Source of the DNA: Miscanthus floridulus
Taxonomy: Eukaryota; Streptophyta; Magnoliopsida; Poales; Poaceae
Direction: 5' to 3'
Length of the DNA stretch: 64,000 nt
Assembly (NCBI RefSeq): GCF_019320115.1
Contig: NC_089584.1
Location: 75,640,791 to 75,704,790 of the forward strand
Numbering within the stretch: position 1 is the stretch's first letter; every line of letters begins with the position of its first letter. Shown here piece by piece: positions 7,101-64,000 of the stretch. Under the pieces are notes generated by a model that saw nothing but the letters and a program-made list of their open reading frames with translations, did no database searches and had not been told where the DNA came from. The translations under genes and the position numbers were made by a program.

Positions 7101-7345
7101 CAAATCTATTTTTCAATACTAAGCCAAATTCAAATGGAATTTGAATTCAACTTCAAATCAACTAGCCCTACACTCAACCAAAAATAATATGCTTCGGCAT
7201 GAATGCAACAAACATGTTTCTAAACCTTATAGTTTATTTTATTTATCCAATATTTATTATTTGGCCTAAGTTAAAAAATACCTAGAAAATTTAATAAAGG
7301 CTAAGAATTAATTGCTAATTTGTAGTAAAATTTTTGGGTGTTACA
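4143..7345 (-). repeat. Tekay A 3' LTR
   Basis: 3203 bp, bounded TGTCGCAC... and ...GGGTGTTACA on the plus strand (TG...CA). It matches 13762-16960 over its full length and 61838-64000 as far as that copy is visible. In a sampled 90-bp stretch (from ~4321) it is closer to the 61838 copy (about 6 differences) than to its own partner LTR (about 11), which fits duplication of the block after insertion. It holds an AT-rich section at the U5 side and a GC/purine-rich section around 6230-7050. Confidence 0.9.
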
Positions 7346-16700: not shown

Positions 16701-16960
16701 AAACAAATCCTTTTCCAAATCTATTTTTCAATACTAAGCCAAATTCAAATGGAATTTGAATTCAACTTCAAATTAACTAGTCCTACACTCAACCAAAAAC
16801 AATATGCTTTGGCATGAATGCAACAAACATGTTTCTAAACCTTATAGTTTATTTTATTTATCCAATATTTATTATTTGGCCTAAGTAAAAAAATACCTAG
16901 AAAATTTAATAAAGGCTAAGAATTAATTGCTAATTTGTAGTAAAATTTTTGGGTGTTACA
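13762..16960 (-). repeat. Tekay A 5' LTR
   Basis: 3199 bp, TGTCGCACCC... to ...GGGTGTTACA on the plus strand, homologous to 4143-7345 along its length. As the 5' LTR it would hold the element promoter. The LTR pair differs at many positions, mostly transitions, so the insertion is not recent. The GC-rich part (15850-16680) contains open frames on both strands that are composition artefacts. Confidence 0.9.
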
Positions 16961-26661: not shown

Positions 26662-28538
26662 TGTCGGTGTTTTGTACAAGCACCGGCAAGTAAATTTATA
26701 GTGATGCGCGTTAGGCTCGGATGGTGCACTAAAGGACACAAGATTTATATTGGTTCGGGCTGAATATCCCTATGTCCAGTTTGTTGCTACTCATGTTATT
26801 AGCACCGAAAATGGTTCATAGTAGGGGTACAAATGATCGAGAGAGGGACTAGTCCCAAGTCTCTTATGGAAGGGTTGAAAAGAGGCCAAGAGCTTGGTAG
26901 TAGCTTGACTGTGTGTGTTATGTGTTGTGCCATCAAAAGTCAGTCCCCTATTGGAGGAAGCGCATCCCCTTTTATAGATGAAGGGGACGGTCTTTACAAG
27001 TGTGAGGGCTAGGATGCGTACTCTACCTAGCCTTGTGGCTCACGTCTACCCAGCCTGGTTTCCCATTCTGATGGGTGCGTAAGGATGATAAGCACCTACA
27101 ATACTGTTGATGCCTCTATAGAATGTCAGGATGGTTATAGAGCAGTGCCCCTCGTAGGGTATGGACTGTAGTACAGTGGCTTTGACTTATGAGCCTTGCC
27201 CAGTCTTGCTCCGCACGCCTTCTGGTTCTTATGAATCTTTGTTGGAGGGACGCGGGGTCAGGGTCCAGAGTAGCGCTGTGGGCAAGGTCTTCCGATCGGA
27301 GAGGACATTCGGAGGCTGAAGCGTGTGCTCCAATCTAGTGAACCCGAGGGGGTGATAAGCGGGTGCCGCTCCCTTGGGACCATAACGTGGTGATGGCATA
27401 TCCGTCATTTGTGGAGATCACAAATCCTTTTCTGGAGCATAGTGGTTGTCATATATTTTTGTCGAGTTCCATGTCCCAGAGTTGAAGGCGACGCCTACAA
27501 CTCTATAGGGTGAAGAGCATGCACCTGCAATACTTTTCAGGCTCTGCTACGCTCGAAAGGGTCTAAAGCACCTGTCCCATCATTCCCTAGTGGTACCTTT
27601 CCTACCAGGGTGCAGGGTATGGTCCTTGAAGCCATGGTTGACCTGAATGTATTGTCTTGCCCTGTACCCATCATCATGAGGGAACAGGGAGAAGTTGTCA
27701 GGCAAGACAAAACTAGTCTTTAGACATCGAGCGGGGCGAGGTTCATCCTCAGTCATCGGGTGAGGCAGAGACCAGTCGTTATCCCTTGGGTGAGACCGAG
27801 CCCGCCCCTCGGGGGTCGGGCGAGGCGGAGTCTATCCCTCAGCCCTCAGGTGAGGTGGATCTGGCCCAAAGGCGTTGGGTGAGGAGGAGAGTAGCCCTCA
27901 GCCCTTGGGCGAGGCAGAGCTGGTCTAAAGGCATCAGGCAAGGCAAAGACTAGCCCTTAGCCCTTAGGCGAGGCGGGGCAATCCCAAAGGCGTCAAGCAA
28001 GGCGGAGACTAGCCCCTAGCCCTTGGGTGAGGCAGAGCTGTCCCAAATGCATCGGGCAAGGCTGAGACTAGCCCTTAGCCCTCGGGTGAGGCAGAGCTAT
28101 CCCAAAGGCGTCAGGCGAGGCTGAGACTAGCCCTTAGCCCTCGAGCAAGGTGGAGCTATCCCAAAGGCATCAGGTGAGGCAGAGACTAGCCCCTAGCCCT
28201 CAGGCGAGGCGGAGCTATCCCAAAGGCATCGGGCGAGGCTGAGACTAGCCCTTAGCCCTCGGGCGAGGCGGAGCTATCCCAAAGGTGTTGGGCGAGGCTG
28301 AGACTAGCCCTTAGCCCTCAGGCGAGGTGAGGCTAGCCCCAAGGTGTCGAGTGAGGCAAAGACTAGCCCTTAGCCCTCGAGCGAGGCGGGGCTGGCCCAA
28401 AGGTGTTGGGAAAGGTGGAACCAAACTCCTGTCATTCGGGCAAGGAACGTAGCGGCACCCTTGTCCATCTAGAAGTTTTTAATGTTTGATGGTTATTGGT
28501 TCCACCTTCTGGGGTACCCCGGTATTATTTCCCCGACA
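26662..28538 (-). repeat. Tat B 3' LTR
   Basis: 1877 bp, TGTCGGTGTTTTG... to ...TTCCCCGACA (plus strand). Homologous to 56586-58378 throughout. The second half is occupied by a 59-bp tandem repeat. Confidence 0.88.
27725..28460 (-). repeat. 59-bp tandem repeat in Tat B 3' LTR
   Basis: About 12 degenerate units of the pattern GAGACTAGCCCTTAGCCCTC followed by GGGCGAGGCGGAGCTATCCC and AAAGGCGTCGGGCGAGGC. Successive GAGACTAG starts at 28064 and 28123 give a 59-bp period. Variation is mostly C/T and G/A. Confidence 0.9.
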
Positions 28539-39509: not shown

Positions 39510-42500
39510 TGTAACACCTCGGTGTTATGCCTGCATTTAGTCACTGCAAATCATACATATCATGCATCATCAAGCATCCAAATCATACATGCCTAATCAT
39601 GTAAATAACAATTGAAACATTGCTTCAAAACATTTGAAACATGTTGTGGGACCTGAATGTTGCATACCTTTGTTAGAATTGTTTTGCCCTAATTTTGCTT
39701 GCTAGGTTAGTAAAACATGTTTGGCTACTATTGTAAATCATCTAGGATTATTTAGTTTAATTTTTGGAGCAAGGTTTGTATTCAAAATAATTCAAAATTT
39801 TGCTTCCAAAGTAATTTCCCGAAAATTAGGGTTTTGAGTTAAACATGGACTTTGATTTTACAATTCAAAATCTAGAAAGAATTTGGCTGTGGTCATAAAA
39901 GCAAAGTTGTAGAGAATTAAATTCTAATCAACTTTCATTTTTGGTACATTTTCAAAAGATGTCATTTTCTTGCTCAAAATAATATTTGAAAGATGGCATT
40001 TAAAAATTCCTTGAAAATATAATTGAAAAATGGCTTTTTCTCCTTGGCGGGCCGCCGCCTCGCTTCTGGCCCATGGCCGAAGCCGGCCCAGCTAGCCTCC
40101 CGCTGCGCCGCGTGCCTCGCCTCGGCCCAGCCTAGCGCCGTGCCGCGCCTGGCCTACCTCCGTGCGCCTGCCCGCTGACGCGCCGCGCCGCGCGCCCGAC
40201 CATGGCAGAGCTTGCCCGCCACGTGGCGGCCATGCGCCGTCGATGCCGCCGCGCGTCGCAGCTAGTCTGCGCCCGCACCCACGCGCCCGCCTATTCCTGC
40301 CATAGCCAGTGCGCTCGCTCGCTCATTCCTGCGCTGCCTCTCCTCTCCGCCAGAGCCGAGCACCCCCAGCTCTGCCTCTCGCCGCGCCACCGCACCCGCC
40401 GGCAAAATCCGCCGCTGCTCCTCCACCTCGGCCAGCAATCACGCGCCCGCAGCTCCGCCTTGCTCTCCTTCAAGTCATGCTTGCGTTTGCGCCGACTGCC
40501 GAGCTTAGGTAGAGCCGTCTCAAGCCTCGCCACCGCCAGCCATGTCGCCGCCGTGCTCGGCCACCATGGAAGGCCCCTTCCTCCTCTTCTCCAACCCCGC
40601 CTAGCTACCCTACCGCATTCGCCAGCTTCTCGCACATCGCGTGCTCTCGCTAACTCACCCTGTCTCGGCCGGAGATGGTCGCCGGCCTCGTGGCCGAGCC
40701 GCGCTGCCGCGACGTCGCAAGCGCCGACGTGGCCTCTACCTCAGCCGAGCCAGGCCAAAAGGCCATGGGCCGACGCCCTATCGGGCGCCTCCCCTTTCCC
40801 CTTCGTTCAGGCCGCGCAGGCCAAAAGTGGCCGTGGGCCAGCTGATTCCAGCGGGCTGGCCCAGTAGCGATTGAAGGAATTGTTTTCAATTTATTCTTTA
40901 TTATTTGAAAATAGAAATGGTTTGCAAAATGTTTGGATACTCAAAGTTGCTCCAAATCTGTTGAAATAAATTTGTCTAGGTTCCTTATCATCAGATCTAC
41001 TTGGGAAAATTTCTGCATGTCATTTTTGAAATACTTTTCTGTAGAACTTTATTTAATCATGTATATTGCTGATAACTTGAAAAATGTGTAGAAAAATCTA
41101 TAGGCTTTAGAAAAATATGATTCCAAGTTTGTTAATCTTCTTATGTCATGTATTTCCTAGGAAAAATATGTTTCATGCATGTGTTGTGGGAAAATTTTGA
41201 GGTGTAGTTCAAGTACCTTTAATGGTTGATTTTTGTTATTTTAGCTAGAGAGCGAACTTTGTATAAAACATGCATGTGATAATTTTTGTACAGTAGTTAT
41301 ATGCTATGAAGAACCTAGGAAAAATACTAACTCTGTTGTTTGACACTTTTCACAGTTCAAAGTATTTTTATGTTCATAATCCTACCATAGCTTGTTATTT
41401 TTGTGTAGGCTAATCCACTCATTCAAATACCATGAAAATCTGATAGTAGACTACTTAGGGTAGTAATGTGCTATAGTAATTTTCTAAGATTTTTCTAAGC
41501 AAGAAAAATAGAGGTTGCTATTCAAACCTATTATTAATTAGGATTTAATTAAGCATTGCTTTATGTGTTTAAGAAATTAGCAAAGCTTTGGTGTATCTTT
41601 GAAGCATTTCATAAGATATGTTGACTTAACATATTAGTAGTAGAAAAGAATGCAGTAGATAACATGTGCTTGTAGTATATTCTCTTGGATGATGTTGACT
41701 ACCTTGCATTTAAACATATCCATTGTATTCATCTCATCCGATGCACCGATTGCATAAGCACTTACGCACATTGCATCATACAGGATCGCAAACTGAGAAC
41801 CCAGTCGTCATACCTGAGGAGCCTAAGGAGCAGTTCGAGGTGCAGCTGCAGGAAGTGCCCGAAGCCGACGAGGAGGACATTGAGGAACTTCCGGAGTGCC
41901 CTGATCACCATTCGAGCTCCTTCGAGAGAGGCAAGCCCCGGAGCATTTTCTCCCGGTTTGCAATTATTAATTAAATGCTTTACTTGATGCATTAAGTTCA
42001 GGAGTTGTTTGCAACCGTTGCTGCATTATACCTTGTTTACCTTTGTTATATTATATCCTTGTTACCCAAGTATCCGCAGTCGAGTCAATGCTTAGCTGGC
42101 TTAGACCGGTAGAAGTCGGGTGATTTCCTGTCACCTGCGAGCTATAGGTGGTTACCTGGATCTGCTTGGATGACTATGAAGTCATGGTATAACTAAGTGT
42201 TAAATGAAGTTGAGACCGGGCGGAGACTTGTAGAGTTTCGGGCTATAGTGTTTCCGTCTGTGTCGATTAAGAACCGATCGTTGTTGGGCCTCGAGTCATG
42301 TTGAATGCATGCCTTACATTTAGCTGGCCAAATAAAGTACCTTCCGACCATGAAGCTGGGAGATTATTCGGGCCGAGTAGATTGCCCACAGCGCACTGTG
42401 CCGGAGCAGGTGTGGTAGGACACGGGGGCGAGATGATAAGACCAAAGTGCAGTTGGTCGGCCCCCGGGTACATGTGGTTCCTGGCAAACTCAAGATTCCT

Positions 42501-43397
42501 AGATAGTTGACTCGGTGATCAATATCTCACTTTAGCGGGTGAGTGAGGTTTGTGTAAGGAATAAATCACCAGCTGGTTAGAAATCGATTCGAATCGCCAT
42601 CGCTCCTGGATAGTGAGCACTTGACTTGAGTTACTTCATCGTAGTAAATGTTTATGGAACACTTGGACAGTTATAATGAATATGACAGTATGGAAGTTGT
42701 TTAATGATCATGGGTTGTCATTATCCTGCTTAATCATGTGTTTGCTCTAGTATAGGTGCAAATCTAGTCGATAGGTTAATAATAATTAAATTGACAATAA
42801 TGCTTTTAGAAAGGTTCTTGAAATGCTAAAAATGCTTCTTTTGCAAATGAGTCAGCTACCCTACTATAAAGCCCTTCATAATCCTTGGTGTCATTTATTT
42901 TCGGTTATGTCGGGTAAGTCTAGCTGAGTACCTTCTCGTACTCAGGGTTTTATTCCCACTTGTTGTAGATGGGTAGATGTATTATGGCTACTATATCAAC
43001 TGCCTTTATCCTGCGATGGGTGATGCTTAGGACCATGGGCATGGTCATTCCTTACGTCTCATCTGATGCTTTTGTTGGAGATGATCATTCGCTGGCACTA
43101 TATTTAAACTCCGTGTGAGTGTGTGTGTGGTTTGAACAAATGACTTCTGCTACTTTTATTCGAACTGGTTTTGTAATAACTATGTTGAAACTCTAATGTA
43201 TCTGAGATTGCAAACTTTTATGTAATATGTGATGGTGACCGCTAAACTTATTACGATCTTGGCTGGAATGGAAGTTGGTTTGAAATCCTTCGTGATTTCA
43301 CGGACTACCGAGTTATACGGGCTTAAGTTTGCTAAATCGTCTGCTCTGGCGGATGATTTTCTTACTTAATTTCATATAATTGGTCGGTTCTATTACA
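39510..43397 (+). repeat. Tekay B 5' LTR
   Basis: 3888 bp, TGTAACACC...ATTACA. It differs from the 3' LTR by few substitutions plus an extra ~35 bp near 40110-40150 (CTGCGCCGCGTGCCTCGCC region). A strongly GC- and CpG-rich segment lies at 40050-40870. No TATA box is obvious immediately around it. Confidence 0.93.
40050..40870. other. CpG-rich segment of Tekay B 5' LTR
   Basis: Sharp rise in GC within otherwise AT-rich LTR, recurring at 50600-51390 in the 3' LTR. Open frames of 100-260 codons appear on both strands (Pro, Ala, Arg and Ser rich), but none has domain content. I read it as a GC-rich promoter-type region rather than a gene. Confidence 0.6.
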
Positions 43398-43399
43398 GC

Positions 43400-43411
43400 T
43401 GGCATCAGAGC
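43400..43411 (+). other. Tekay B primer-binding site
   Basis: TGGCATCAGAGC, 2 nt after the 5' LTR, matches the initiator-Met PBS TGGTATCAGAGC at 11 of 12 positions. Confidence 0.9.
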
Positions 43412-44187
43412 ATGGTTTAGCGTGTTACTGTTCACAAGTGTATTTAAAACAAAAAGGCATTTGAAAAACGTGATTTCCAAACTATAAAGTGTGCCAGTGG
43501 TCATATCCTTTATGCCTAGTTAAGGACTTTAGGTGGCTTAATTAAGTACTGATTGGGGTTCTTGCATCATATTTCTCTTTCGTTGCTCATACGGCGTGCT
43601 ATTGTATGAGTGCCACTTGTTTGAGTGGTAATGTATGGATCAATTGCCTCTACGCCTCGGTAAGTGTGAGTTGTGAGAGCATGATCGGATACACCGCCGA
43701 TCTAGGGTGAATGCTTATATGATGCTGGAGTAATTACATGTTCTACGCATGTTTTACAAAGGTATCTCATGTATGGATCTTCCATCTGTGGAGGCGATGC
43801 CGTCAATAGGACGATGGTTCGGGTAGTTACTACTGTTGTACACGTATCTGGGAATTCGTGTAGAGCGTTTAGATAAAACTTTACTGCTTTTATGCATTCA
43901 TTGGGAATTGGGCTAAAATGAATCTTCTGCAGGTACATAACAACGCTATCGTGTAGAATGTATTAGCTACGTATTTGAGAGATCGTTTGTATGCCACCGA
44001 ATTTGTCATTAGAACTTATTTATTTACTAAGTTTGTGAGAACGTACGACACATACATACATCATGTTACTTGTGCATTTCATTCATGTCATGCATTCCTC
44101 CCCTTATACATTGATTATCTCATTTTGATAAAAGTTGTATCACCTAAAATATGTTTTCCCGAGGTAATAAAAGAACTTTTGCTACAG
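43412..44187 (+). other. Tekay B leader
   Basis: About 780 bp with no coding frame. It ends ...AACTTTTGCTACAG directly before the ORF0 ATG. The acceptor-like end suggests this leader may contain an intron; a donor was not assigned. Confidence 0.6.
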
Positions 44188-45177
44188 ATGGCCTGCACGA
44201 AGCAGACCGCCCGTAAGTCCACCAGAGGAAGAGCACCTCGACGTCCGTTGGCCCTGAGGGAGCACGACACCACGGACACCTTCTTGAGCGAGTTTGGCAT
44301 GCCAACTTTGCTTTGGAGAGTGCTCCATGATGTGGGGTACCCAGAGGGTCAAGAACCAGTGTACTCTTAGAATGAGAGCCAGTTAGCAGAGGATGGACTC
44401 GCAGTGGTGGAGATCACGGTTCCTGCTCTCGGTGATGCTCTAGATTAGGATGGTTGGCATTTGGAGTTTGAGGGTCGCACTCCCACTGAGGGTGCAGAGG
44501 GAGCAGCCTTTCGTGTCATTAGGGACATTATGAGCAGATTTCCTAGTGAGGTTGCAGCAGCTCTAGCTGGCACTTTTCCTAGGGATGATCCTCGTGATGC
44601 CATTTGGGTTCAGCCTTAGGGAAGTGCATTGGTCAGAGGTCCAGCTGAAGGACAGGCTAGCGACAACCAGGCAATGAGTGCTATGTTCACCGCCATCAGA
44701 GCGTATGAGGGTCTTGAGAGTACCTAATGGACTTTGACTGGCCTGCGTGGTTAGGATAAGCTCAAGGGGAGAAAGCAGAAGAAGAGACAGGCATGTGCTA
44801 TAGCTAGCTTGCAGGAGCAGTTGGCTGATATGAACTTACAGCGAGATCAGGCGGTTGAGAGAGGTGATAGAGCTATGTAGCGAGTGCATACGTTGACTCA
44901 AGCCAACAACAATGCAGACCGCATGATTGGACAGTTGGTTCAGGAAAGGAATGAAGCCTAGAATGCAAGAAACCTTCTGCTGTAGAGGGTCAATGAGCTA
45001 GAGGAATACAACAGCAACCTGCATGAGGAGTTTCACGCGCTCTACAATGGGGTTGGCCCATATGCTCCACCAAATGCCGCTGGCATGGATATCGACGACG
45101 ACAACGAGGATGAGCCTGTAGTTTCACCTGGGGGCGATGGTGACGTCTCTGATCCCGATGATGGCCCCGAGGAGTAG
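44188..45177 (+). pseudogene. Tekay B ORF0: histone H3 tail mimic with coiled coil and acidic tail
   Basis: 330 codons from ATG 44188 to TAG 45175-45177. After Met the protein starts A-C-T-K-Q-T-A-R-K-S-T-R-G-R-A-P-R-R-P-L-A. Against the H3 tail (A1 to A21) 16 of 21 residues agree, in register, with K4 and the A7-R8-K9-S10-T11 context intact. C2 (TGC) and R12 (AGA) are each one transition from the H3 residue; positions 14, 18 and 19 also differ. Next comes L-R-E, as in the H3 alpha-N A-L-R-E, but nothing further is clearly histone. The middle is unrecognised. The C-terminal third is coiled-coil (LQEQLADMNLQRDQAVERGD; VNELEEYNSNLHEEFHALY) then acidic (DIDDDNEDEP...DPDDGPEE). Eight internal stops, seven TAG and one TAA. 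Same position as ORF0 of Tekay A. Function unknown. Confidence 0.8.
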
Positions 45178-45543
45178 GCTAGTTGCCTTGCGCTAGTATC
45201 TAGGTCCTATCGCGATGACCTTTCTTTTGTTGGCATGTAACCTATTGTATGTTGCTTCGAACGTATGAGACTTGGCATGTGGTTGGAACTTGATTTCGAA
45301 TGCGATATCTGAACGCATAAAAAGTCCAATGTATGTATACTGGCAAATTTGGTTGTATGGACGCGATGTTTGCCGTTGAAGTAATTTGATTAAGTGTTGT
45401 TGTTTTAATTGAGATGCGATTGTTGTGCCTCTGTTTTATTGTATGAATTTATTCTCTCCAGTAAATTTAGTACGGCATAATTTTTCCTTCACTCGCAATT
45501 ATTGTAGCTTCACTCAATCATTACTTGTTGCTAAAATATGCAG
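45178..45543 (+). other. Tekay B spacer between ORF0 and gag
   Basis: 366 bp, AT-rich, no frame. Ends GTTGCTAAAATATGCAG immediately before the gag ATG, an acceptor-like sequence. Confidence 0.6.
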
Positions 45544-46650
45544 ATGACAAACACTCGCCAAACCACGTATGAGGCTGCTGAGACCGGTGCTAATGGTGCG
45601 GGGACCGGTGGTGGTGGTGGTGGAAACCACGGCAACAACAATGAGCCTCCCCATGAACTACATTTGCCACCTCCTCCCCCGTTTACCCCCGAGATGTTCC
45701 TCGCATAGTTGCTCGGGAGTCAGCGCAACGTGGAACAATCTCAGAAGAACATGGAGGATTTTCTGCGCACCATCGCCAACAACGTTCAATGTGGTAACAA
45801 TCAAGGTGGTGGCATGGGAGTGAACCAATATAGCAGCTTCAAAGATTTCATGGACACCAAGCCGCCAGTATTCAAGGAAGCAACAGAGCCACTCGATGCT
45901 GAGGAATGGATCAACACGATGGAAGATAAATTCCGTGTGTTGAGGTTGACTGAGGTGTTGAAAATGGAGTATGCTGCACTTCAGTTACAAGGACCGGCGG
46001 GAATGTGGTGGAAGCACCATCGCACCACCTTCCCTCCAAATGCTCAGATTTCTTGGAGAGAGTTTGCTGAGGCCTTCTGTGGAGTCTATATTCCACCCGG
46101 GCTGTCCGAAATGAAGTTGGGAGAGTTTCTGGTGTTGAACCAGGGCACCAAGACCGTGACGCAATATCTGCATGCCTTCAACAACTTGTGTCGCTATGCT
46201 CCCGACATGGTTGACACAGATGCTAAAAGGATAGCTAGTTTTAAGAGGGGTCTCAATCCAAAAATGATGAAGCATGTTGGTACCAACAACCGCGTCAGAT
46301 TCAATGACTTCATCAGCGACTGTCTAAAGCAGGAGAAGAATAACAACACCAGCACCGCAGCCAAGACATGCAAGAGAGCCTTTGAAGGTGGGCCATCGCA
46401 AGCTAGAGCACCTATGGGAGGTCGTCCTCCATATCGCCCATCGGCACCTGGCGCTAGATTCCAGCCACCTCAGCAAAGAAGTCAGACTTTCCGTGGACCC
46501 CAGAAGTCATACAAGATGGTAGTACAGTCCAACAAAGCAGCCGCAACTGCGGTATAAGGCAGTTCCAAGGGAGCTATGGGATCTGCCGGGACAGTGAGGG
46601 GACCCTGCTATAACTGTGATCAACCTGGCCATTTTTCGAGGTTTTGTTCA
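45544..46650 (+). pseudogene. gag: Tekay B gag
   Basis: ATG 45544 (M-T-N-T-R-Q-T-T) rather than the later TTG: the upstream 55 codons, broken by one TAG at 45706-45708, are clearly coding (Gly- and Pro-rich). Core: FKDFMDTKPPVFKEATEPLDAEEWI, LQGPAGMWWKHH, ISWREFAEAFCGVYIPPGL, FLVLNQGTKTVTQYLHAFNNLCRYAP (about 45840-46210). Basic tail, then a CCHC knuckle CYNCDQPGHFSRFC at 46606-46647 after a TAA at 46555-46557 that probably was CAA. It continues in frame into protease. The family's Gag forms the particle and binds RNA. Confidence 0.92.
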
Positions 46651-49600
46651 TACCCACCCAAGAAGAAGAAGCAGACTTATAATGCTAGAGTGCATAGTAC
46701 AATAGTGGATGAAATTCCTAAGGGAGAGCCCATCACTGCTGGTAAGTTTCCTATCAACGAAAACCCTGCAGTTGTTTTATTTGATTCTGGATCATCGCAT
46801 TCTTTTATGAGTCAAGCATTTGCACAGAAACATGAACAACTATGCACAGAATTGGGTTATGGTTACCATATAAGTTCAGCAGGGGCTAATGTTTTGACCA
46901 ACCGGATGGTTTGAGGGGCAACCCTTGAATTAGGTAGCAGGAAGTTCTGAGTGAACTTGATAGTTATGCCTGGATTAGTTTTGGATGTCATTATAGGGAT
47001 GAATTGGATGAAGGATTGGGGAGCAGTCATAGATACTGGAAGTCGAGTACTTACCCTTAAGGATCCCCTGGGTGAGGGTACTTTCCAAGTACCATTGCCT
47101 CGAAGAACAGACCTTATAAGTGTTACATGTGCTACGGCAGTCATTCCTATTCATCAGATTCCGATAGTGTGTGAATTTCCAGATGTATTCCCCGATGAGC
47201 TACCTGGTCTTCCGCCGGATTAGGAGATTGAGTTTGGAATTGAGTTAGTCCCCGGAACAGCTCTGATTTCAAGGAGACCCTATCGGATGCCTCCAGATGA
47301 GTTAGCTGAGCTGAAGAAGCAATTAGAAGATTTATCAAAAAGGGGTTTATTCAGCCAAGCAAGTCTGAATGGGGATGTCCCGCCTTGTTTGTGAAGAAAA
47401 AGAAAGAGGGCACATTGAGAATGTGCGTAGATTACAGGCCACTCAATGCTATGACCATAAAGAATAAGTATCCCTTGCCTCATATTGATGTTCTGTTTGA
47501 TCAATTATCCCAGGCCAAGGTGTTCTCAAAAATAGATTTGAGATCCGATTATCATTAGATTAAGATTAGGCCACAGGATATACCGAAAACTGCATTTTCC
47601 ACCAGATATGGGTTGTATGAGTATCTTGTCATGTCCTTTGGCTTGACAAATGCTCCTGCATACTTTATGTTTTTGATGAATACCATTTTCATGCCAGAAT
47701 TGGATAAGTTTGTGGTAGTATTCATCGATGACATTCTGGTGTACTCCGAGAATGAGAAAGATCATGAAGAGCATCTGAGAACTGTCTTGACCAGACTTAG
47801 GGATCATTAATTGTATGCTAAGTTTAGCAAATGTGAATTCTGGTTGAAGGAAGTTCCTTTCCTTGGTCACATTCTATCAAAGAATGGGGTTTCAGTCGAT
47901 CCAAGTAAGGTGCAAGAAGTTATAAATTGGAAAGCACCGACCATAGTTCCTGAGATTAGAAGTTTCTTAGGACTAGCCGGTTATTACCGTCGCTTTATAC
48001 CAGACTTTTCGAAGATTGCCAAACCAATGACAAGTCTCCTACAGAAGGATCATAAGTTTGTGTGGACAGAGGAGTGTGAAGCAGCTTTCCACACTTTACG
48101 GAAACTGTTGACCACTGCTCCTGTTCTAGCACAACCAGATATCGAGAAACCATTTGATGTGTTTTGCGACGCATCGAAGACTGGATTGGGTTGTGTTCTT
48201 ATGCAAGAAAGGAGAGTCATTGCTTATGCATCACGTCAATTGAGAAAGCACGAGGTCAACTATCCAACACATGATCTTGAACTTGCTGCAGTTATACACG
48301 CCCTAAAAATTTGGAGACATTATCTACTTGGTAATGTGTGCAACATTTTCACAGATCACAAGAGTCTTAAGTACATCTTTACCCAACTAGAGTTAAACAT
48401 GAGACAGCACAGATGGTTGGAATTGATCAAGGATTACAACTTGAATGTGCAATATCATCCTGGAAAAGCCAATGTAGTGGCAGATGCTTTAAGCAGAAAG
48501 TCACATTACTTGAATGTGCAGCCATTACTTGAAGATGGGTTCGATCTAATGCATCCTGCTATGTTACATAGTATTTAGATTAGTTGCTCTTTGGAGAGTA
48601 AGATAATAGAAGGCTACAAAACCGACAAGGGGATATTCCACATCAGAGAGAAAATAAAAGAAAAGTCGTCTCAACACTTTAAAGTGGATGAATAGGGCGT
48701 GTTGTGGTTTGACGACCGTCTTGTGATTCCCAAGGATCGAGAGCTTAGGAATAAACTCATGGATGAAGCTCACCTTTCTAAGCTATCTATCCATCCCGGA
48801 AGTAGTAAGATGTATCAAGAACTAAGATCTCGTTATTGGTGGACCAAAATGAAGAAAGAAATTATAGCATATGTTGTCAGATGTGACACATGTTGTCGAG
48901 TGAAAGCCATTCACATGAAACCTACCGGTATGTTGCAACCCTTGTCCGTCCCTAGTTGGAAGTGGGATGATATAAGTATGGATTTTATCACGGGTTTGCC
49001 CACTACTCAAAAAGGACATGATTCGATTTGGGTAATTGTGGACCGTCTTACCAAGACCGCTCATTTCTTGCCTATCAAAACAGATTACCGACCACCTCAA
49101 TATGCCGAGAAGTATATCGTAGAAATTGTGAGGTTGCATGGTATACCAAAGACCATAGTATTTGATAGAGGCTCACAGTTCACGGCTCACTTTTGGGAAC
49201 ATTTACACAAAGGCTTAGGAACTAGTTTGATTTGCAGTACCGCTTATCATCCTCAGACAGATGGTCAGACTGAATGAGTGAATGCTATTTTGGAGGATAT
49301 GTTAAGAGCCTGTGTATTGTCTTCTAAGGGATCATGGGAGTCATGGTTACCGTTAGCTGAGTTTTCTTATAATAATAGTTATCAAGAAAGCATCAAGATG
49401 GCTCCCTTTGAAGCTTTATATGGTAGAAGATGTAGAATACCATTGAATTAGGTCGAGCCTGGAGATAGAAGGTATTATGGCATTGACTTTGTAGAAGAAG
49501 TCGAGAAGAAAGTTCATATTATTTAGTAGAATATGAAAGCTGCCCAATCACGTCAGAAAAGTTATGCAAACAGAAGAAGAAGACCCCTTATGTTTGAAGT

Positions 49601-49835: not shown

Positions 49836-49990
49836 CTCAAATCAGATTTGGTGTATCATGAGCAACCAGTCCGGGTGTTAGACACTAAGGAATGTGCTAC
49901 TCAGAATAGTGTGGTGAAAACATACAAGATACAGTGGGATCATCATGATGAGGGAGATGCAACTTGGGAAATAGAATAGTATCTACAAAA
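49836..49990 (+). other. Tekay B integrase chromodomain
   Basis: In the integrase frame, after a TAA (49833-49835), the text EQPVRVLDTKECATQNSVVKT-Y-K-I-Q-W-D-H-H-D-E-G-D-A-T-W-E-I-E follows, then a TAG and YLQKAYEDFYN. The YKIQW...ATWE core with a closing helix is a chromovirus chromodomain. In relatives such domains bind chromatin marks and bias integration. This is the natural partner to consider for the H3-like ORF0. Confidence 0.85.
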
Positions 49991-50063: not shown

Positions 50064-53000
50064 TGTAACACCTTGGTGTTATGCCTGCATTTAGTCACTG
50101 CAAATCATACATATCATGCATCATCAAGCATCCAAATCATACATGCCTAATCATGTAAATAACAATTGAAACATTGCTTCGAAACATTTGAAACATGTTG
50201 TGGGACCTGAATGTTGCATACCATTGTTAGAATTGTTTTGCCCTAATTTTGCTTGCTAGGTTAGTAAAACATGTTTGGCTACTATTGTAAATCATCTAGG
50301 ATTATTTAGTTCAATTTTTGGAGCAAGGTTTGTATTCAAAATAATTCAAAATTTTGCTTCCAAAGTAATTTCCCGAAAATTGGGGTTTTGAGTTAAACAT
50401 GGACTTTGATTTTACAATTCAAAATCTAGAAAGAATTTGGCTGTGGTCATAAAAGCAAAGTTGTAGAGAATTAAATTCTAATCAACTTTTATTTTTGGTA
50501 CATTTTCAAAAGATGTCATTTTCTTGCTCAAAATAATATTTAAAAGATGGCATTTAAAAATTCCTTGAAAATATAATTGAAAAATGGCTTTTTCTCCTTC
50601 GCGGGCCGCCGCCTCGCTTCTGGCCCACGGCCGAAGCCAGCCCAGCCAGCCTCTCGCCGCGCCGCGCCTGGCCTGCCTCCGTGCGCCTGCCTGCTGACGC
50701 GCCGCGCCGTGCGCCCGACCACGGCAGAGCTTGCCCGCCGCGTGGCGGCCATGCGCCGTCGACGCCGCCGCGCGTCGCAGCCGGTCTGCGCCCGCGCCCA
50801 CGCGCTTGCCTATTCCTGCCGTAGCCGGTGCGCTCGCTCGCTCATTCCTGCGCTGCCTCTCCTCTCCGCCAGAGCCGAGCGCCCCCAGCTCTGCCTCTCG
50901 CCGCGCCACCGTACCCGCCGGCGAAATCCGCCGCTGCTCCTCCACCTCGGCCAGCAATCACGCGCCCGCAGCTCCGCCTTGCTCTCCTTCAAGTCATGCT
51001 TGCGTTTGCGCCGACTGCCGAGCTCAGGTAGAGCCATCTCAAGCCTCGCCACCGCCGGCCATGGCGCCGCCGTGCTCGGGCGCCATGGAAGGCCCCTTCC
51101 TCCTCTTCTCCAACCCCGCCTAGCTACCCTACCACATTCGCCAGCTTCTCACGCATCATGTGCTCCCGCTAACTCGCCCTGTCTCAGCCAGAGATGGCCG
51201 CCGGCCTCGTGGCCGAGCCACGCTACCGCGACGTCGCAAGCGCCGGCATGGCCTCTGCCTCAGCCGAGCCAGGCCGAAAGGCCGTGGGCCGACACCCTAT
51301 CGGGTCACCTCCCCTTTCCCCTTCGCTCGGGCCGCGCAGGCCAAAAGCGGCCGTGGGCCAGCTGATTCCAGCGGGCTGGCCCAGTAGCGATTGAAGGAAT
51401 TGTTTTCAATTTATTCTTTATTATTTAAAAATAGAAATGGTTTGCAAAATGTTTGGATACTCAAAGTTGCTTCAAATCTGTTGAAATAAATTTGTCTAGG
51501 TTCCTTATCATCAGATCTACTTGGGAAAATTTCTGCATGTCATTTTTGAAATACTTTTCTATAGAACTTTATTTAATCATGTATATTGCTGATAACTTGA
51601 AAAATGTGTAGAAAAATCTATAAGCTTCAGAAAAATATGATTCCAAGTTTGTTAATCTTCTTATGTCATGTATTTCCTAGGAAAAATATGTTTCATGCAT
51701 GTGTTGTGGGAAAATTTTGAGGTGTAGTTCAAGTACCTTTAATGGCTGATTTTTGTTATTTTAGCTAGAGAGCGAACTTTGTATAAAACATGCATGTGAT
51801 AATTTTTGTACAGTAGTTGTATGCTATGAAGAACCTAGGAAAAATACTAACTCTGTTGTTTGACACTTTTCACAGTTCAAAGTATTTTTATGTTCATAAT
51901 CCTGCCATAGCTTGTTATTTTTGTGTAGGCTAATCCACTCATTCAAATACCATGAAAATCTGATAGTAGACTACTAGGGTAGTAATGTGCTATGGTAATT
52001 TTCTAAGATTTTTCTAAGCAAGAAAAATAGAGGTTGCTATTCAAACCTATTATTAATTAGGGTTTAATTAAGCAATGCTTTATGTGTTTAAGAAATTAGC
52101 AAAGCTTTGGTGTATCTTTGAAGCATTTCATAAGATATGTTGACTTAACATATTAGTAGTAGAAGAGAATGCAGTAGATAACATATGCTTGTAGTATATT
52201 TTCTTGGATGATGTTGACTACCTTGCATTTAAACATATCCATTGTATTCATCTCATCTGATGCACCGATTGCATAAGCACTTACGCACATTGCATCATAC
52301 AGGATCACAAACCGAGAACCCAGTCGTCATACCCGAGGAGCCCGAGGAGCAGTTCGAGGTGCAGCCGCAGGAAGTGCCCGAAGCCGACGAGGAGGACATT
52401 GAGGAACTTCTGGAGTGCCCTAATCACCGTCCAAGCTCCTTCGAGAGAGGCAAGCCCCAAAGCATTTTCTCCCAGTTTGCAATTATTAATTAAATGCTTT
52501 ACTTGATGCATTAAGTTCAGGAGTTGTTTGCAACCGTTGCTGTATTATACCTTGTTTACCTTTGTTATACTATATCCTTGTTACCCAGGTATCCGTAGTC
52601 GAGTCAATGCTTAGCTGGCTTAGACCGGTAGAAGTCAGGTGATTTCCTATCACCTGTGATCTATAGGTGGTTACCTAGATCTGCTTGGATAACTATGAAG
52701 TCATGGTATAACTAAGTGTTAAATGAAGTTGAGACTGGGCGGAGACTTGCAGAGTTTCAGACTGTAGTGTTTTCGTCTATGTCGATTAAGGACCGATCGT
52801 CGTTGGGCCTCGAGTCATGTTGAACGCATGCCTTACATTTAGCTGGCCGGATAAAGTACCTTTCGACCGTGAAGCTAGGAGATTATTCGGGCCGAGTAGA
52901 TTGCCCGCAGCGCACTGTGCCAGAGCAGGTGTGGTAGGACACGAGGGCGAGATGATAAGACCAAAGTGCAGTCAGTCGGCCCCCGGGTACATATGGTTCC

Positions 53001-53915
53001 TAGCAAACTCGAGATTCCTGGATAGTTGACTCAGTGATCAATATCTCACTTTAGCGGGTGAGTGAGGTTTGTGTAAGGAATAAATCACTAGCTGGTTAGA
53101 AATTGATTCGAATCGCCATCGCTCCTGGGTAGTGAGCACTTGACTTGAGTTACTTCATCGTAGTAAATGTTTATGGAACACTTGGACAGTTATAATGAAT
53201 ATGACAGTATGGAAGTTGTTTAATGATCATGGGTTGTCATTATCCGCTTAATCATGTGTTTGCTCTAGTATAGGTGCAAATCTAGTCGATAGGTTAATAA
53301 TAATTAAATTGACAATAATGCTTCTAGAAAGGTTCTTGAAATGCTAAAAATACTTCTTTTGCAAATGAGTCAGCTACCCTACTATAAAGCCCTTCATAAT
53401 CCTTGGTGTCATTTATTTTCGGTTATGTCGGGTAAGTCTAGCTGAGTACCTTCTCATACTCAGGGTTTTATTCCCACTTGTTGTAGATGGGCAGATGTAT
53501 TATGGCTACTATATCAACTGCCTTTATCCTGTGATGGGTGATGCTTAGGACCATGGGCATGGTCATTCCTTATGTCTCGTCTGATGCTTTTGTTGGAGAT
53601 GATCATTCGCTGGCACTATATTCAAACTCCGCGTGAGTGTGTGTGTGGTTTGAACAAATGACTTCCGCTACTTTTATTCGAACTGGTTTTGTAATAACTA
53701 TGTTGAAACTCTGATGTATCTAAGATTGTGAACTTTTATGTAATATGTGATGGTGACCACTAAACTTATTACGATCTTAGCTGGAATGGAAGTTGGTTTG
53801 AAATCCTTCATGATTTCATGGACTACCGGGTTATACGGGCTTAAGTTTGCTAAATCGTCTGCTCTGGCGGATGATTTTCTTACTTAATTTCGTATAATTG
53901 GTCGGTTCTGTTACA
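50064..53915 (+). repeat. Tekay B 3' LTR
   Basis: 3852 bp, TGTAACACC...GTTACA, nearly collinear with 39510-43397 apart from about 36 bp missing in the GC-rich segment (after 50650). It contains a 262-codon plus-strand open frame (50577-51365) without recognisable domains. Confidence 0.93.
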
Positions 53916-56585: not shown

Positions 56586-58378
56586 TGTTGGTGTTTCGTA
56601 CAAGCACCGGCAAGTAAATTTATAGTGTGCACGTTAGGCTCGAATGGTGCGCTAAAGGACACAAGATTTATACTAGTTCGGGCTGAATGTCCCTATGTCT
56701 AGTTTGTTGCTGCTCATGTTATTAGCACCAAAAATGGTTCATAGTAGGGGTACAAATGATTGAGAGAGGGACTGGTCCCAAGTCTCTAATGGAAGGGTCG
56801 AAAGGAGGCCAAGAGCTTGGTAGCATCTTGACTGTGTGTGTTATGTGTTGTGCCGTCAAAAGTCAGTCCCCCTGTTGGAGGAAGCGCATCCCCTTTTATA
56901 GATGAAGGGGATGGTCTTTACAAGTGTGAGGGCTAGGATGCGTACTCTACCTAGCCTTGTGGCTCACGTCTACCTAGCCTGGTTTCCCATTCAGATGGGT
57001 GCGTAAGGATAATAAGCGCCTATAATACTGTCGATGCCTCTATAGAATGTCAGGATGGTTATAGAGCACTACCCCTTGCATGGTATGGACTATAGTACAG
57101 TGGCTATGACTTATGAGCCTTGCCCAGTCTTGCTCCACACGCCTTCTGGTTCTTATGAATCTTTGTCGGAGGGACGTGGGGTCGGGGTTCGAAGTAGCGC
57201 TGTGGACAAGGTCTTCTGATCGAAGAGGACGTCCGGAGGCTGAAGCGTGTGCTCTGATCCGATGAACCCAAGGGGGTGGGAAGCGAGCGCCACTCCCTTG
57301 GGACCATAACATGGTGACAGCATATTCGTCATTTGTGGAGATCACAAATCCTTTTCTGGAGCATAGTGGTTGTCATATATTTTCATCGGGTTCCGTGTCC
57401 TAAAGCTGAAGGTGGCGCCTACAACTCTACAGGGTGAAGAGCACGCACCTGCAATACTTTTTAGGCTTTGCTACGCCTAGAAGGGTCTAAAGCACCTATC
57501 CCGTCATTCCCTGGCAGTACCTTTCCTGTTGGGGCGCAGGGTATGGTCCTTGAAGCCATGGTTGACCCATCATCATGAGGGAACAGGGAGAAGTTGTTAG
57601 GTAAGACAAAACTAGTCTTTAGACATCGAGCGGGGCAAGGTTCGTCCTTGGTCATTGGGTGAGGCAGAGACCAGTCCTTATCCCTTGGGCGAGACCAAGC
57701 CCACCCCTCAGGGGTTGGCCGAGGCGGAGTCTATCCCGCAGCCCTCGGGTGAGGCGAAGCTAGCCCAAAGGCGTCGAGCAATGAGGAGACTAGCCCTCAG
57801 CCCTCAGGCAAGGTGGAGCTGGTCCAAAGGCGTTGGGCAAGGCAGAGACTAGCCCTTAGCCTTTGGGTGAGGCAGGGCTATCCCAAAGGCATCGGGCGAG
57901 GCAGAGACTAGCCCCTAGCCCTTGGGAGAGGCGGAGCTATCCCAAAGGCATCGAGCAAGGCTGAGACTAGCCCTTAGCCCTCGGGTGAGGCAGAGCTATC
58001 CCAAAGGCATCGGGTGAGGCTGAGACTAGCCCTTAGCCCTTGGGCGAGGCAAAGCTATCCCAAAGGCATCAGGCGAGGCTAAGACTAGCCCTTAGCCCTT
58101 GGGTGAGGCGGAGCTATCCCAAAGGTGTCGGGCAAGGCTAAGACTAGCCCTTAGCCCTCAGGCGAGGCGAGGCTGGCCCAAAGGCATCGGGCGAGGCGGA
58201 GACTAGCCCTTAGCCCTCGAATGAGGTGGGGCTGGCTCAAAGGCGTCGGGCGAGGCGGAACCAAACTCCCATCATTTGAGCAAGGAACATAGCGGCACCC
58301 TTGTCCGTCTAGAAGTTTTCAACATTCGATGGTTATTGGTTCCACCTTCTAGGGTACCCCAGTATTAGGTCCCCAACA
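56586..58378 (-). repeat. Tat B 5' LTR
   Basis: 1793 bp, TGTTGGTGTTTCG... to ...GGTCCCCAACA (plus strand), homologous to 26662-28538. It would provide the promoter for gag-pol (leftward). A CTATAAAAGGGG on the minus strand (about 56890-56902) is a good TATA candidate, with a counterpart near 26970-26982. Confidence 0.88.
57630..58265 (-). repeat. 59-bp tandem repeat in Tat B 5' LTR
   Basis: About 10-11 units of the same 59-bp GAGACTAGCCCTTAGCCC... pattern seen in the other LTR, with fewer units than there. The copy-number difference explains most of the LTR length difference. Confidence 0.88.
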
Positions 58379-59164: not shown

Positions 59165-60549
59165 CATAGTTTTTAAGGCATCGCCTAGGTGATAACTAGT
59201 CGTCCGAGCGGATTTTCAAACCTGGCATCACTATCACCGCATCATCCTAGCGTATGGCATCGCCTCGCGGTTGAAGTCATCCTTCTCGCTAAGGTGGATG
59301 CCGCAGCATGAAAAGGCACGGGAAAAGAGTGGCGTCGCATGCTCGAGGGGGCAGGAAAAGAGCGGCATGATGCCCTCGCGTGGGAAAAGCAGCGGCGCCG
59401 CGCCTACACTGCCCACCAAAGGCTCCCAATCCCCATTACCTCAGAGAGAGTGAGAGAGGGAGGGGAAAGGAAGGAGAAAGCAAGAGAGGAGAGAGTAGTT
59501 GTGCACCTCAAATCTGGCAGCGGCGGCGGTGTAGGTGACTGCCCCATGTGAGTCTATCCCAGCCATGTGAGGCCGCTTGTCCGCTTGACTCTACTCTGTG
59601 TAGTGACTGCTCCATTTAACCATGAGACTCCGACAGTATGCTCCGTTCGTGACTCTATCCCCATCCATGACCAAATCTCACTCCATCCACCATGAGCCAT
59701 GACTGACTCCAGCATCATCCATTTTCACAAACGATTCCAGCCCCATGACTCTGCTCTATTCCACACGACTAGCAAGTATATCCTCCCCTCCTCTTTCCTC
59801 TGCTGCTCATTGTGGCTCTGCTCTTCCTCCCCATTCTTCCTCTGCTCTTCCTCCCCCTCATTCTCATGCTCTGCTCCTTCTTGTACCCCTTTGATGTACT
59901 TTGCTCTCTCTATTGTGCTCCTTTCTCCTATTTAGTCTATGTAGGAGGAACATGAGTAGGCCTAGAAGATGTATGGCTACACACTTATGTCAGATGGCTG
60001 GACTAATAAGAGAGGTCGCCATTTGATCAACTTCCTTGTGAATAGCCCTATGGGGACTTATTTCTTGGAGTCTGTTGATGCATCAAGTGAGGTACATGAT
60101 GCATTTATGCTTGTTGATTTACTAGAGGAAATACAAGGTGGTTCAAGTTATCACTGATAATGGAGCTAATTACAAGGCAGTTGGTAGAATTCTAATGGAA
60201 AGGATTCCTATGGTGTATTGGAGCCCATGTGTTGCACACTACTTGGATCTTATGCTGGAAGAGATAGGGAATTTGAAGGAATTTAAGAAGCCCATTACAA
60301 GAGCCAAACGTGTCACAACTTTCATGTATAGGCATAGGAGAATTCTTAGTTTGATGAGAGAAAAGACAGGGGTTGATCTTGTGAGACCTATAGACACTCG
60401 ATTTGCCACCTCTTTCCTCACTTTAAAAAGTTTGCACAAGCATAGAGATGCTTTGAAGGCTTTATTTGTTAGTGAAGAAGGGTTGTGGTACAAATTGGCA
60501 AAAACTGTAGCCGATCAAGAAGTGCACAACACTGTGCTCTCTGTGGAAC
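59165..60549 (+). mobile_element. hAT fragment, copy 2, with internal deletion
   Basis: Collinear with 213-2850 but missing about 1.26 kb: copy 1 positions ~989-2247 (second part of the leader, BED finger and linker). The 59,94x junction TCTATGTAG|GAGGAAC lies at a TCTATG direct repeat present at both ends of the missing segment in copy 1 (980-985 and 2239-2244). It ends at the same Tat gag junction. Confidence 0.75.
59951..60549 (+). pseudogene. hAT transposase DUF659 fragment, copy 2
   Basis: Reads MYGYTLMSDGWTNKRGRHLINFLVNS, GTYFLESVDASSEVHDAFMLVDLLEEIQ, frameshift near 60137, then VVQVITDNGANYKAVGRILMERIP and WSPCVAHYLDLMLEEIG to HNTVLSVE. It retains Trp codons (SDGWTN) where copy 1 has a stop, but one conserved Cys-His (AHC) is Tyr. 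The start codon region and BED finger are deleted. Fused in frame to antisense Tat gag (see 60138-61292). Confidence 0.82.
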
Positions 60550-61837
60550 TCCTTAGCCAAGCCGAGGCAGTCCTTCATCTTGTGCTTGGCATTCTTGTGG
60601 AGAGGGCATGGGCCTTCGAGGATCTTCTTCTACTACTCATTGTAGTTGCACTTGGCACAAGGTTCTTTGATGATGGTGATGATGTGGTCTGGTCAGCGAT
60701 GGCGATATTGACCAGATTTGGACCCTTCTGGCCGATCATGGCCACTGTCTCGATGGTAACTGTGATCATCATAGCAGCAGTTGGTGTGGCACCAATCATT
60801 AGGGAGATTGTCATTGTGGCGAGTTGGGCGATGAGTGCCCAGATCCTCATTGAAGCGCACTTCGGTTTCTTTGGTGTTGGCATACTAATTGGCGGTCATA
60901 ATCATCTCGCCAATCTCCGTGGGTGGCTTGTGGTTGAACTTGGAGTGGAGATCATTTTGATGGAGCCCTCGAACAAAGGCGGTGATAACCTCAACTTCTG
61001 TGCTGTTGGGAATAGAATTCCTCATCTCAGAAAAGTATCTAATGTAGCTACGGAGGAGCTCGGACAGTTTCTAGTAGATGCAGTTCATGTCATGCTTGGT
61101 GCCCGGCCGAGTACATGTAGCCATATAGTTGTTGGTGAAGACCTTTTCCAGCTCTTCCTAGGATCCGTTGGAGTTCGAGGCAAGGCTTGTGAACTATTTC
61201 ACCATGGTTGGTGTGAGCATGACGGGAAGATAATTTGCCATGACACTGGTATCTCCTCTGGTGGCACGCACAACAATGGTGTAAGCCTGTAGCCACTATG
61301 TGTGGTTCATCCATCCCTCATAGGGCTCGACCCTAGTGATTTTGAAACCACTAGGCCACTAGAGAGTTTAGAGTGCCCTCATAAATGCTGGGGGCCCTTA
61401 AAGATTGTCGGCACCGTGATCTGCAGTGTTGTCGGCATTGAGCGGCTCGAGAGCTGAGTCTAGATTACCGAACTCTTGCTCGTACCCTTGACAGAGGTGT
61501 ACTTCTTCATGATGACTGAAACGGCGCTCATCGATACATCATCACGTGTCTCAGAGATTGTTGAGGTGCGCTCGGACATCCTGGTTGACCTCCTGGTCAT
61601 GTAGGCATGGGTGTTCAATGTAGTTGCCCCTAACTCCCCCTGGAGGAGGTGTCTATTGTCGTGGTGCTAGTTGGTGAAACGACTTGGGTGGTGATCAAAT
61701 CTTGGCATGGCTGCTCGGTGAATTGAGCTTGTGGAGTATGAAGGCCTCTCATCCTGGTGGATCTCGTTGACTTGGCAGTGCACCGCTTTAAGCATGGCAG
61801 CGACCTTGGCGACCTCTGGTGTCTGCGAGAGCCAGGC
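60549..61837 (-). pseudogene. Tat A gag fragment, copy 2
   Basis: Homologous to 2850-4142 and in the same context. The minus strand shows PEVAKVAAMLKAVHCQVNEIHQ (about 61830-61750), then the AFVRGL/KFNHKPP-type text and KHKMKDCLGLAK near 60560. Broken by frameshifts and stops. Ends at the Tekay LTR at 61838, at the same gag position as in copy 1. Confidence 0.75.
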
Positions 61838-64000
61838 TGTCGCACCTAATTTTGCATAGCAAAACCAAGTACTCATATATGTGCGCCCAGGATGTCCAAA
61901 CACACACATATATCACAAATTGCAATAGTATCAAAGTAAAGTACTTATTACATCACATATCTCATCATAAAGTTAATACAAAGTTTGCTCAATGGCAATA
62001 TTATTACAATCATAGCGGAATAACTAGCCCAAACTGCCACAGGGACTCCAATTGGTGAACGTCTCCCTAGTAGTTCTGGACATCCTCCGGGAACTCTTCA
62101 CATCCATTATTTGTTACCCATTCGAGATTTTCATTGGATGTAAAGCAAGTGTAAGCTCACCATGCTTAGCAAGTATATCAAAGGGTTCTATGAGGCTCAA
62201 AAGGCTTGACACTGTGTTACTGTGGTTTGCAATTTTAGTTGGTCAAATTTTTGTATCTTGAATCACTACTTTAATGAACAGTCCTAATTCCCAAGTGATA
62301 TTAAAGTATAGTCAAATTTATCTCAATTCTCAACCATCCACCACCCATAGTAACCACTAATCTTGAAGGGTCCAGACCGCTCATATCTGTGAGCATGGCT
62401 ATTATAACAGGTTAAATATTTCTATAGAAATTGTACATCTTTACCCACCGAGCCATGATTCCCAATGCCGGGGTTCACGAGGCCCACTACACCTCTTCCG
62501 AGGAAGTGTGGTAGGGTTTCACTATGAAACCCTTAGCTAGTCGCACTAACAAGTCGTAGCTATTAAGGAGTGGCACACGTGGGCATCGCAGCATGGTGCA
62601 CACATCCTAGCAAAAAAAGGAAAGATACCCTCTTACCATTACTGGAAGCTACAAATGAGCTAGTACAATCTAGTTAACAGGTTAAAGTCAAAGCCATATG
62701 ACTCTCGGGGTTGTATGGAACCTCCTGGGTTGCCACTTCAGGATTAAGTCCTTATGGAGAGGCACTAGAGTACTCAACCCCATACTCTAGCCCCCTATCT
62801 GTTACTACAAAGCTTCATTTTATCACATTGCATATAGCCTTTAGTCATGTTTAACAATTATTTTATGTTAAGTGCTGCAGCATCTATCCAAAATGCCTAC
62901 CCAAAAACCCCAGGTATCAAGGATATGTGGTACAAGAAATCATCTAGGTGAAGTCCTTAAAGGTATTTCAAATTAAACACATGCATGAATATGAATGGTA
63001 ATAGTTCATAGGTAACAAGGGGCCTTTGGTACACTTGCCTTCCTCAAAGTTGTCCTGGAAGTACTGCTGATCCTACTATGGGTCTTCTGTCACCTCAAAT
63101 GGCTCACCCTCTAATCGTGTTCCAATCACCAATCAAGCATCATTCCAATTATTACATGCATACAAGATAGACTTCTATTAGAATAGTACACCAAACAGTA
63201 AAACATAAGTTGAAAAGCTCATAAATCTATTCTATGTATTGCTACGAACACGTGAGCGAAAGAATCACTCAAATCGGACATAAAACGCGAAAGCTATGCA
63301 TGAAATAAGGTGTAATGGCATTCCTATAAATAAACTAAACCTATTTTTGAATTAAAACAATTAAAAATATGCATATACACGGTTATAGGACTGCAGGTAC
63401 TAATTCTAGAAAATATAGGGGCCTAACCGAATAAAAACAGGACTGGTATGCTATTACTTTGAATTAAAATGGACTACGAGTTGAATCTATGAAAAGAGAA
63501 GGGTCTTTCTGCAAATCTATAAGTGGCTTGACTATGGGTTGACCGCGGCGCTAACTGGATGACACGTGGTGTTCTGGGGTTGGATCGGTGCACCATGTGG
63601 CTCAGTGGACCGACTGACGCGGCTCTGTGGCTAGGGTCTATGGGTCCATGGTGGACCGGTTATGATCCAACTGGTATGATTGGATCTAGGCCATCCAGTG
63701 CCGATCCGATGGCATAGGAGGCACGATGAGTCCTACACCGCTGCACAGGGACACCGATGAGCATGCCATGGCCGCTAGCAAGTCTACCACGGTGGTGAAC
63801 CTCTGGTACGGTGGTTTCGGCCATTCCCGAGATAACCAAGCGCACCTAAATGATCTACGAGATCCCGCAAACACAATGGATACGCTACCGATGCGAGGAA
63901 CACGACAGAGTGCTGAGCCCACAGTGGCACCATGGCCAGCGGGTCTGGAGGTCATCGGTACGGCATTCTAGGGCATGAAATTGTGAATGGAAGGCACAGG
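61838..64000 (-). repeat. Tekay A-family LTR, duplicated copy, runs off the window
   Basis: Starts TGTCGCACC and matches 4143-6305 throughout. It sits at the identical site in Tat gag (CAGGC on its left). Whether it is a solo LTR or the start of a second full Tekay A cannot be told, as the window ends. Confidence 0.9.

Follow-up and report, generated by a model that had tools for sequence, protein, structure and literature searches.

The window analyzed here, a stretch of 64,000 nucleotides of the Miscanthus floridulus genome (NCBI RefSeq assembly GCF_019320115.1, contig NC_089584.1, positions 75,640,791 to 75,704,790 of the forward strand), carries a long terminal repeat (LTR) retrotransposon of 14.4 kb, flanked on either side by its 5-bp target duplication, GGTGC. 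Between its primer-binding site (PBS) and its gag gene lies a long open reading frame (ORF), hereafter ORF0 (Table 1). The translation of ORF0 (44188-45180) opens with MACTKQTARKSTRGRAPRRPLALREH, in which 16 of 21 residues are identical to those of the tail of histone H3, aligned without a gap. This match, reported directly after the initiator Met in an earlier note made from the sequence alone, was borne out when we translated the frame again. The first 26 residues of ORF0 on their own matched histone H3 in the PDB with an E value of 8.3e-6 (phmmer), and a profile built from 45 relatives matched histone H3 with an E value of 1.2e-7. A search of the whole genome using histone H3 as the query returned the host H3 genes at the top, followed by dozens of ORF0 copies at E values of about 1e-4. 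A chance resemblance to H3 is ruled out by the matches to the PDB, of the profile, and across the genome.

The likeness begins at the initiator Met and covers, in most copies, residues 1 to 13, 15, 16, 20, and 21 of H3. The two proteins differ at K14 (R in ORF0) and at K18 (R or H in ORF0), and a domain resembling a double-stranded RNA-binding domain (dsRBD) stands in place of the histone fold. H3 likeness was limited to the first ~28 residues in the 17 tailed proteins that we found in public assemblies, and Pfam gave no histone match after the tail in the public relatives P0009, P0001, P0044, and P0069. The differences from H3 at residues 2 and 12, which the earlier note had attributed to single transitions, are present in the window copy and are not family-wide, since R2 was found in 29/36 and G12 in 30/36 copies. 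The L-R-E that follows A21 had been compared with A47-L-R-E50 of H3, with the intervening part of a longer captured segment possibly lost. This reading is not supported by the residues of other relatives at this place, which show LAPRTRQ, LVPREPR, LAPRRSR, or LATRAPR.

The presence of the tail was examined in further copies of the same genome (2.68 Gb) and in proteins from public assemblies. The query 44150-44400 gave 1597 first-look candidates, of which 40 were scored, and 30 of these were read together with six from the H3 search. In this sample of subfamily A, likeness to 44150-44400 was the criterion for L002-L030 and likeness to H3 that for L051-L056. All 36 copies carried the tail, and 35 of them the ATG. 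The tail-free query P0001 gave 12143 candidates, of which 131 were scored; ~60 of the 131 listed rows had no stop inside the match. When the first 20 plus-strand rows were cut, 19 of the 20 copies had the tail. The exception, L101, shows leader-like sequence in the place of the tail, which is likely a deletion. For a second subfamily, B, there were 8447 first-look candidates, 150 of them scored and 30 cut, and all 30 had the tail, with a query that included it. Relatives in public assemblies were collected using three queries: ORF0, residues 1 to 120 of P0009, and the domain by itself. They amount to 165 proteins, of which 126 cover the start of the domain and 28 reach at least 12 residues upstream of it (17 tailed and 11 tail-less). 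Twelve of the tailed and all 11 tail-less proteins were among the best 120 of the 571 matches of the domain-only search. Many other public proteins begin at an internal Met, likely an effect of gene calling, and are uninformative on the tail. No relatives were confirmed in viral and genomic contig collections.

K4 and K9 were kept in 36/36 A copies, 30/30 B copies, and 17/17 tailed public proteins. Residue 14 was R in every A (36/36) and B (30/30) copy and in 15 of the 17 public proteins (the others have one W and one K), and residue 18 was H in 11, R in 5, and Q in one of these 17. Among the latter, R2, T3, K4, K9, P16, and L20 were invariant and S10 was found in 16. The retention of K4 and of R8-K9-S10-T11, together with the loss of K14 and K18, is consistent with a mimic of the K4/K9 region.

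The tail peptide is under strong purifying selection and is written with other codons in subfamily B. Between A and B, residues 1 to 16 showed a synonymous divergence (dS) of 0.93 and a nonsynonymous divergence (dN) of 0.016 (bootstrap of the ratio of nonsynonymous to synonymous differences, pN/pS, 0.006-0.085). The 19 other A copies, picked with the tail-free query, gave a dS of 0.900 and a dN of 0.013. The dN/dS of this segment is thus 0.014-0.017 at a dS of ~0.9. Over residues 1 to 21 the ratios rise to 0.084 and 0.076, because residues 17 to 19 vary. For the domain, the A-B comparison gave a pN of 0.32, with saturated synonymous sites. A-B identity was 86.8% in the tail and 53.4% in residues 24 to 117, and the sites at which A and B proteins share no residue numbered 0/21 in the tail and 28/80 in the domain (Fisher test; P = 6e-4; 4 A and 8 B rows, with P0034, P0069, and P0077 left out). 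Among the 36 copies, ORF0 pN/pS was 0.23 for residues 38 to 119 and 0.33 for residues 120 to 325. Within subfamily A, pN/pS was 0.96 in the tail and 1.52 in the linker; the tail value was not weighed, because likeness in this same stretch was what the sample had been chosen by, and because most of the changes in it stem from late decay.

Neutral drift of residues 1 to 21, which the earlier note had named as an outcome that would speak against its reading, is ruled out by the A-B dN/dS. A recent exchange between the subfamilies, as the cause of the sameness of the tail, is likewise ruled out by the differing synonymous sites. The tail might still be a fragment of H3 caught by chance and carried unused, and the window copy is indeed decayed, with one TAA and eight TAG, including the TAG that terminates the frame. 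This is very improbable, given a peptide that stays constant despite synonymous turnover and is present in nearly all copies chosen without it.

Copies without a tail are also common in the same genome. A search for the tail-less type of P0097 gave 10063 first-look candidates (cross-hits possible), of which 150 were scored and eight cut. These eight (seven lined up by script and L093 by eye) start with MVQ-MATPVGCEN or close to it. Among the 11 B copies with upstream bases, eight have ATGTTAATGGTGCAG directly before ATGGCA, a stretch common to the tail-less copies to within two bases, and the upstream sequence of the remaining three ends in TTGCTACAG, as in A. The tail is thus present in some copies and absent from others whose leader ends are similar and whose domains are related. 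In a tree of the domain (36 rows, of which 12 are tailed, 11 tail-less, and 13 unknown, without an outgroup), tailed and tail-less rows fell on opposite sides of a branch with 100/100 support, with the exception of P0069. Two changes sufficed in all, a number matched by none of 500 shuffles. The public protein P0069 combines a tailed start of B type with a domain of the tail-less type, from an exchange between subfamilies or a join in the assembly. A tail-less sister with a related domain and a similar leader end suggests that the tail was probably added once onto an older ORF0. Relatives lacking the tail had been named in the earlier note as evidence against its reading. The sister subfamily is indeed tail-less; this points to a gain of the tail, or to its loss in that subfamily, and does not make the tail functionless in the copies that carry it.

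The public protein P0125 suggests how the tail was joined. It keeps K14, and its likeness to H3 extends to residue 26, followed by CES, which resembles the CEN or SES found just before the domain in the tail-less relatives. From this one protein we infer an ancestral capture of ~26 H3 codons joined at the CES point. We favor capture because the match is long and ungapped and because of P0125; codons are not the basis. Of the codons for residues 1 to 12, 9 are identical to those of a host H3 gene, where ORF0 codon use predicts 4.9 (P = 0.003); over 21 residues P is 0.05, and no excess is left under H3 codon use. The alternative is convergence, in which an unrelated sequence came to resemble H3. 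This would account for a codon identity no higher than H3-like codon use predicts, for synonymous sites to the H3 genes that are near saturation (pS, 0.67-0.70), and for a match that stops by about residue 28. It is nevertheless improbable, since P0016 and P0017 match H3 at 19 of 21 tail residues, ungapped from residue 1, since P0125 has K14 and the extended match, and since nothing tail-like was seen in the 11 tail-less relatives.

The remainder of the ORF0 protein is predicted to consist of a dsRBD-like domain, long helices that likely form a coiled coil, and a disordered acidic end. Pfam searches with ORF0 relatives gave weak matches below the cut-off and none to a dsRBD. Among the best structural matches of the modeled domain are dsRBDs that contact a Dicer-type protein or a partner. 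Its predicted fold and order of elements are like those of dsRBD proteins in the Dicer pathway (TRBP dsRBD3, Staufen dsRBD5, Loquacious dsRBD3, plant DRB7.2, and DCL4), whereas sequence identity in the rows named is only 11 to 19%, with no Pfam match. Canonical dsRBDs bind RNA through a lysine-rich motif in the second helix; no such motif was seen by eye in the second helix of the predicted model.

The expression of ORF0 could involve splicing. There are 23 ATGs ahead of ORF0 in the leader (43398-44187, 790 nt) and 13 in the spacer between ORF0 and gag (45178-45543). The predicted donor in the leader and the two predicted acceptors (Table 1) would make it possible for ORF0 and gag to have separate messages. 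The AG before the ORF0 ATG was also found in 29/30 subfamily B copies and in 7/7 lined-up tail-less copies. A second candidate donor, a GTAAGT within the tail (position 44213, 36/36 A rows), was dropped because codon 8 of B is CGC in 29/30 copies and CAT in one, so that the motif is not formed there.

We propose that the tail is a nuclear decoy for the host factors that mark or read H3 at K4 and K9, a reading to which we give a probability of roughly 40%. Removal of the Met would expose A1-S10 to these factors, and SUVH-type methyltransferases, chromomethylases, and K4/K9 readers would bind or methylate this segment and thereby be drawn off the element's chromatin. The dsRBD-like domain would dock on small-RNA machinery or dimerize. 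The mimicry suggested in the earlier note is thus retained in part, with support from an H3 likeness beyond chance, from its position at the start of a constrained frame, and from selection on the tail; its account of a lost H3 segment is not.

The H3 tail is a natural nuclear import signal, and the tail of ORF0 might serve import only, since nuclear entry is required of the protein or of the complex it is part of. Seven of the 21 tail residues of the window copy are K or R and none is acidic, residues 14 and 18 are still basic in most copies, and passages of a published paper (PMC11728184) predict nuclear localization for 5' extra frames of grasses. However, an import signal has no need for T3, Q5-T6-A7, S10-T11, G12-G13, P16, and L20, which are kept all the same, nor does it explain a dN/dS of ~0.015 over residues 1 to 16, and we consider import alone unlikely. 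A third possibility is a tether: the tail would be bound by H3-tail readers, or by the chromodomain of the element's integrase, and the integration complex would thereby be steered to particular chromatin. A chromodomain-like fragment is present at the integrase end of the element (broken; nearest solved chain, the Clr4 chromodomain, E = 0.23), and in sunflower Tekay groups 5' extra frames are tied to a different insertion pattern, according to passages of the same paper (PMC11728184). Against a tether, excerpts of two papers (PMC6317226; PMC3350952) describe seed-plant Tekay chromodomains without part of the methyl-lysine cage and without a known partner, and we hold the odds of this explanation to be low.

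The decoy reading can be extended to a two-headed anti-silencing protein, evolved by an abundant retrotransposon lineage, in which the captured H3 tail would occupy H3K9 writers and readers and a Dicer-docking dsRBD would take the small-RNA arm. We regard this version as speculative. If true, it would be a transposon-encoded histone mimic, kept by selection, against both arms of RNA-directed DNA methylation, with a tail stripped of the acetylation sites 14 and 18 and with K4 and K9 intact. Plant transposon silencing is described in passages of one paper (PMC9033089) as a loop of H3K9 methylation and DNA methylation. The element, whose tail was kept while its codons turned over, may answer this loop directly. 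Sisters with and without the tail in one genome offer a natural contrast for the benefit of the tail (insertion sites, age, and methylation), and the replacement of K14 and K18 with retention of K4 and K9 makes possible a sharp and cheap peptide test of mimicry.

The two LTRs with the target duplication, gag, RNase H, and integrase (Table 1) make the element a member of Ty3/gypsy, and the long frame with coding constraint between PBS and gag makes ORF0 a 5' extra ORF. The clade name Tekay is the label of the earlier note and does not come from placement in a tree of reverse transcriptase, RNase H, or integrase. The PBS, TGGCATCAGAGC, is presumably of the tRNA-Met type. The LTR pair showed a Kimura two-parameter (K2P) divergence of 0.039 (139 transitions and 7 transversions), which at a substitution rate of 1.3e-8 gives an age of ~1.5 million years. 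This is likely an upper bound, because the excess of transitions is that of methylation-type decay and inflates the estimate.

Table 1. Features of the element and of ORF0 in the window
Feature	Position	Strand	Remarks
5' LTR	39510..43397	+	TG...CA ends; 95.3% identity to 3' LTR (self-comparison)
Primer-binding site	43400..43411	+	Read from sequence
Donor-like GTAAGT in leader (predicted splice donor)	43660..43665	+	Each base kept in 35-36/36 rows
CAG abutting ORF0 ATG (predicted splice acceptor)	44185..44187	+	AG in 36/36 rows
ORF0 frame	44188..45177	+	329 codons and end; internal stops break window copy
Initiator Met and H3-like tail	44188..44253	+	Residues 1-21 in H3 numbering
dsRBD-like domain (predicted)	44299..44538	+	ORF0 residues 38-117; from the P0009 model and structure comparison
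Long helices, likely coiled coil (predicted)	44665..45048	+	Model of relative P0001
Acidic end, predicted disordered	45082..45174	+	14/31 residues acidic (D/E); K and R absent
CAG/ATG at gag start (second predicted acceptor)	45541..45546	+	AG in 29/29 rows with letters there
gag, open part	45751..46557	+	Retrotrans_gag, E 9.8e-18
pol, RNase H piece	48027-48578	+	RT_RNaseH, 1.7e-35
pol, integrase piece	48759-49277	+	Integrase_H2C2, 5.2e-15
Chromodomain-like fragment, integrase end	49836..49976	+	PF00385, E 0.0091, 16.3 bits (cut-off 25.1 bits)
3' LTR	50064..53915	+	TG...CA ends; purine-rich tract just upstream

Other observations concern the rest of the element and the window. The start of gag at 45544 reads MTNTRQT, faintly like MARTKQT, which we take as chance. 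GC-rich open frames lie inside the LTRs (40202-40867, 221 codons; 50751-51365, 204 codons), perhaps as an effect of composition. Arrays of a 59-bp tandem repeat were found at 57646-58318 and 27698-28419 and are ~80% alike to each other. Direct repeats of 91 to 92.5% identity (2239-6299 with 59936-63996, and 4143-7345 with 13762-16960) are probably LTRs or parts of other elements. The segment 8921-10252, on the minus strand, is 66% like this element's pol (47163-48496) in the opposite orientation and likely belongs to another gypsy element.

The element belongs to a known kind. The earlier note had assumed that chromoviruses normally have no gene between PBS and gag, which does not hold, since 5' extra frames of Tekay elements, including RIRE3, RIRE8, Retrosat-2, maize Tekay, and sorghum Sb7, are described in passages of PMC11728184. 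The same passages give a DRBM-like fold for the extra frames of maize Tekay and sorghum Sb7 (TM score, 0.35-0.37; E value, 0.04-0.25). ORF0 is like the grass Tekay 5' extra ORFs in its position between PBS and gag, its strand, and its similar size. In the literature covered (titles, starts of abstracts, and passages), no H3 tail in a transposon frame was found, a search that did not take in a 2011 paper in Genetica. In that paper, Steinbauerova et al. (Genetica 139:1543) reportedly noted that part of the extra ORFs of Poaceae chromoviruses resemble the histone H3 gene and proposed transduction. Selection on the tail, the loss of K14 and K18, and an architecture of tailed and tail-less sisters seem to be added here to what is known of the grass extra ORFs, although some of this may overlap with the 2011 paper. 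Known H3 mimics, such as the tail of influenza NS1, G9a, and EZHIP, use short or internal motifs. ORF0 likewise joins a short stretch of H3 likeness to a protein otherwise unrelated to H3, and it differs from them in carrying ~21 such residues at the true N terminus of a transposon protein.
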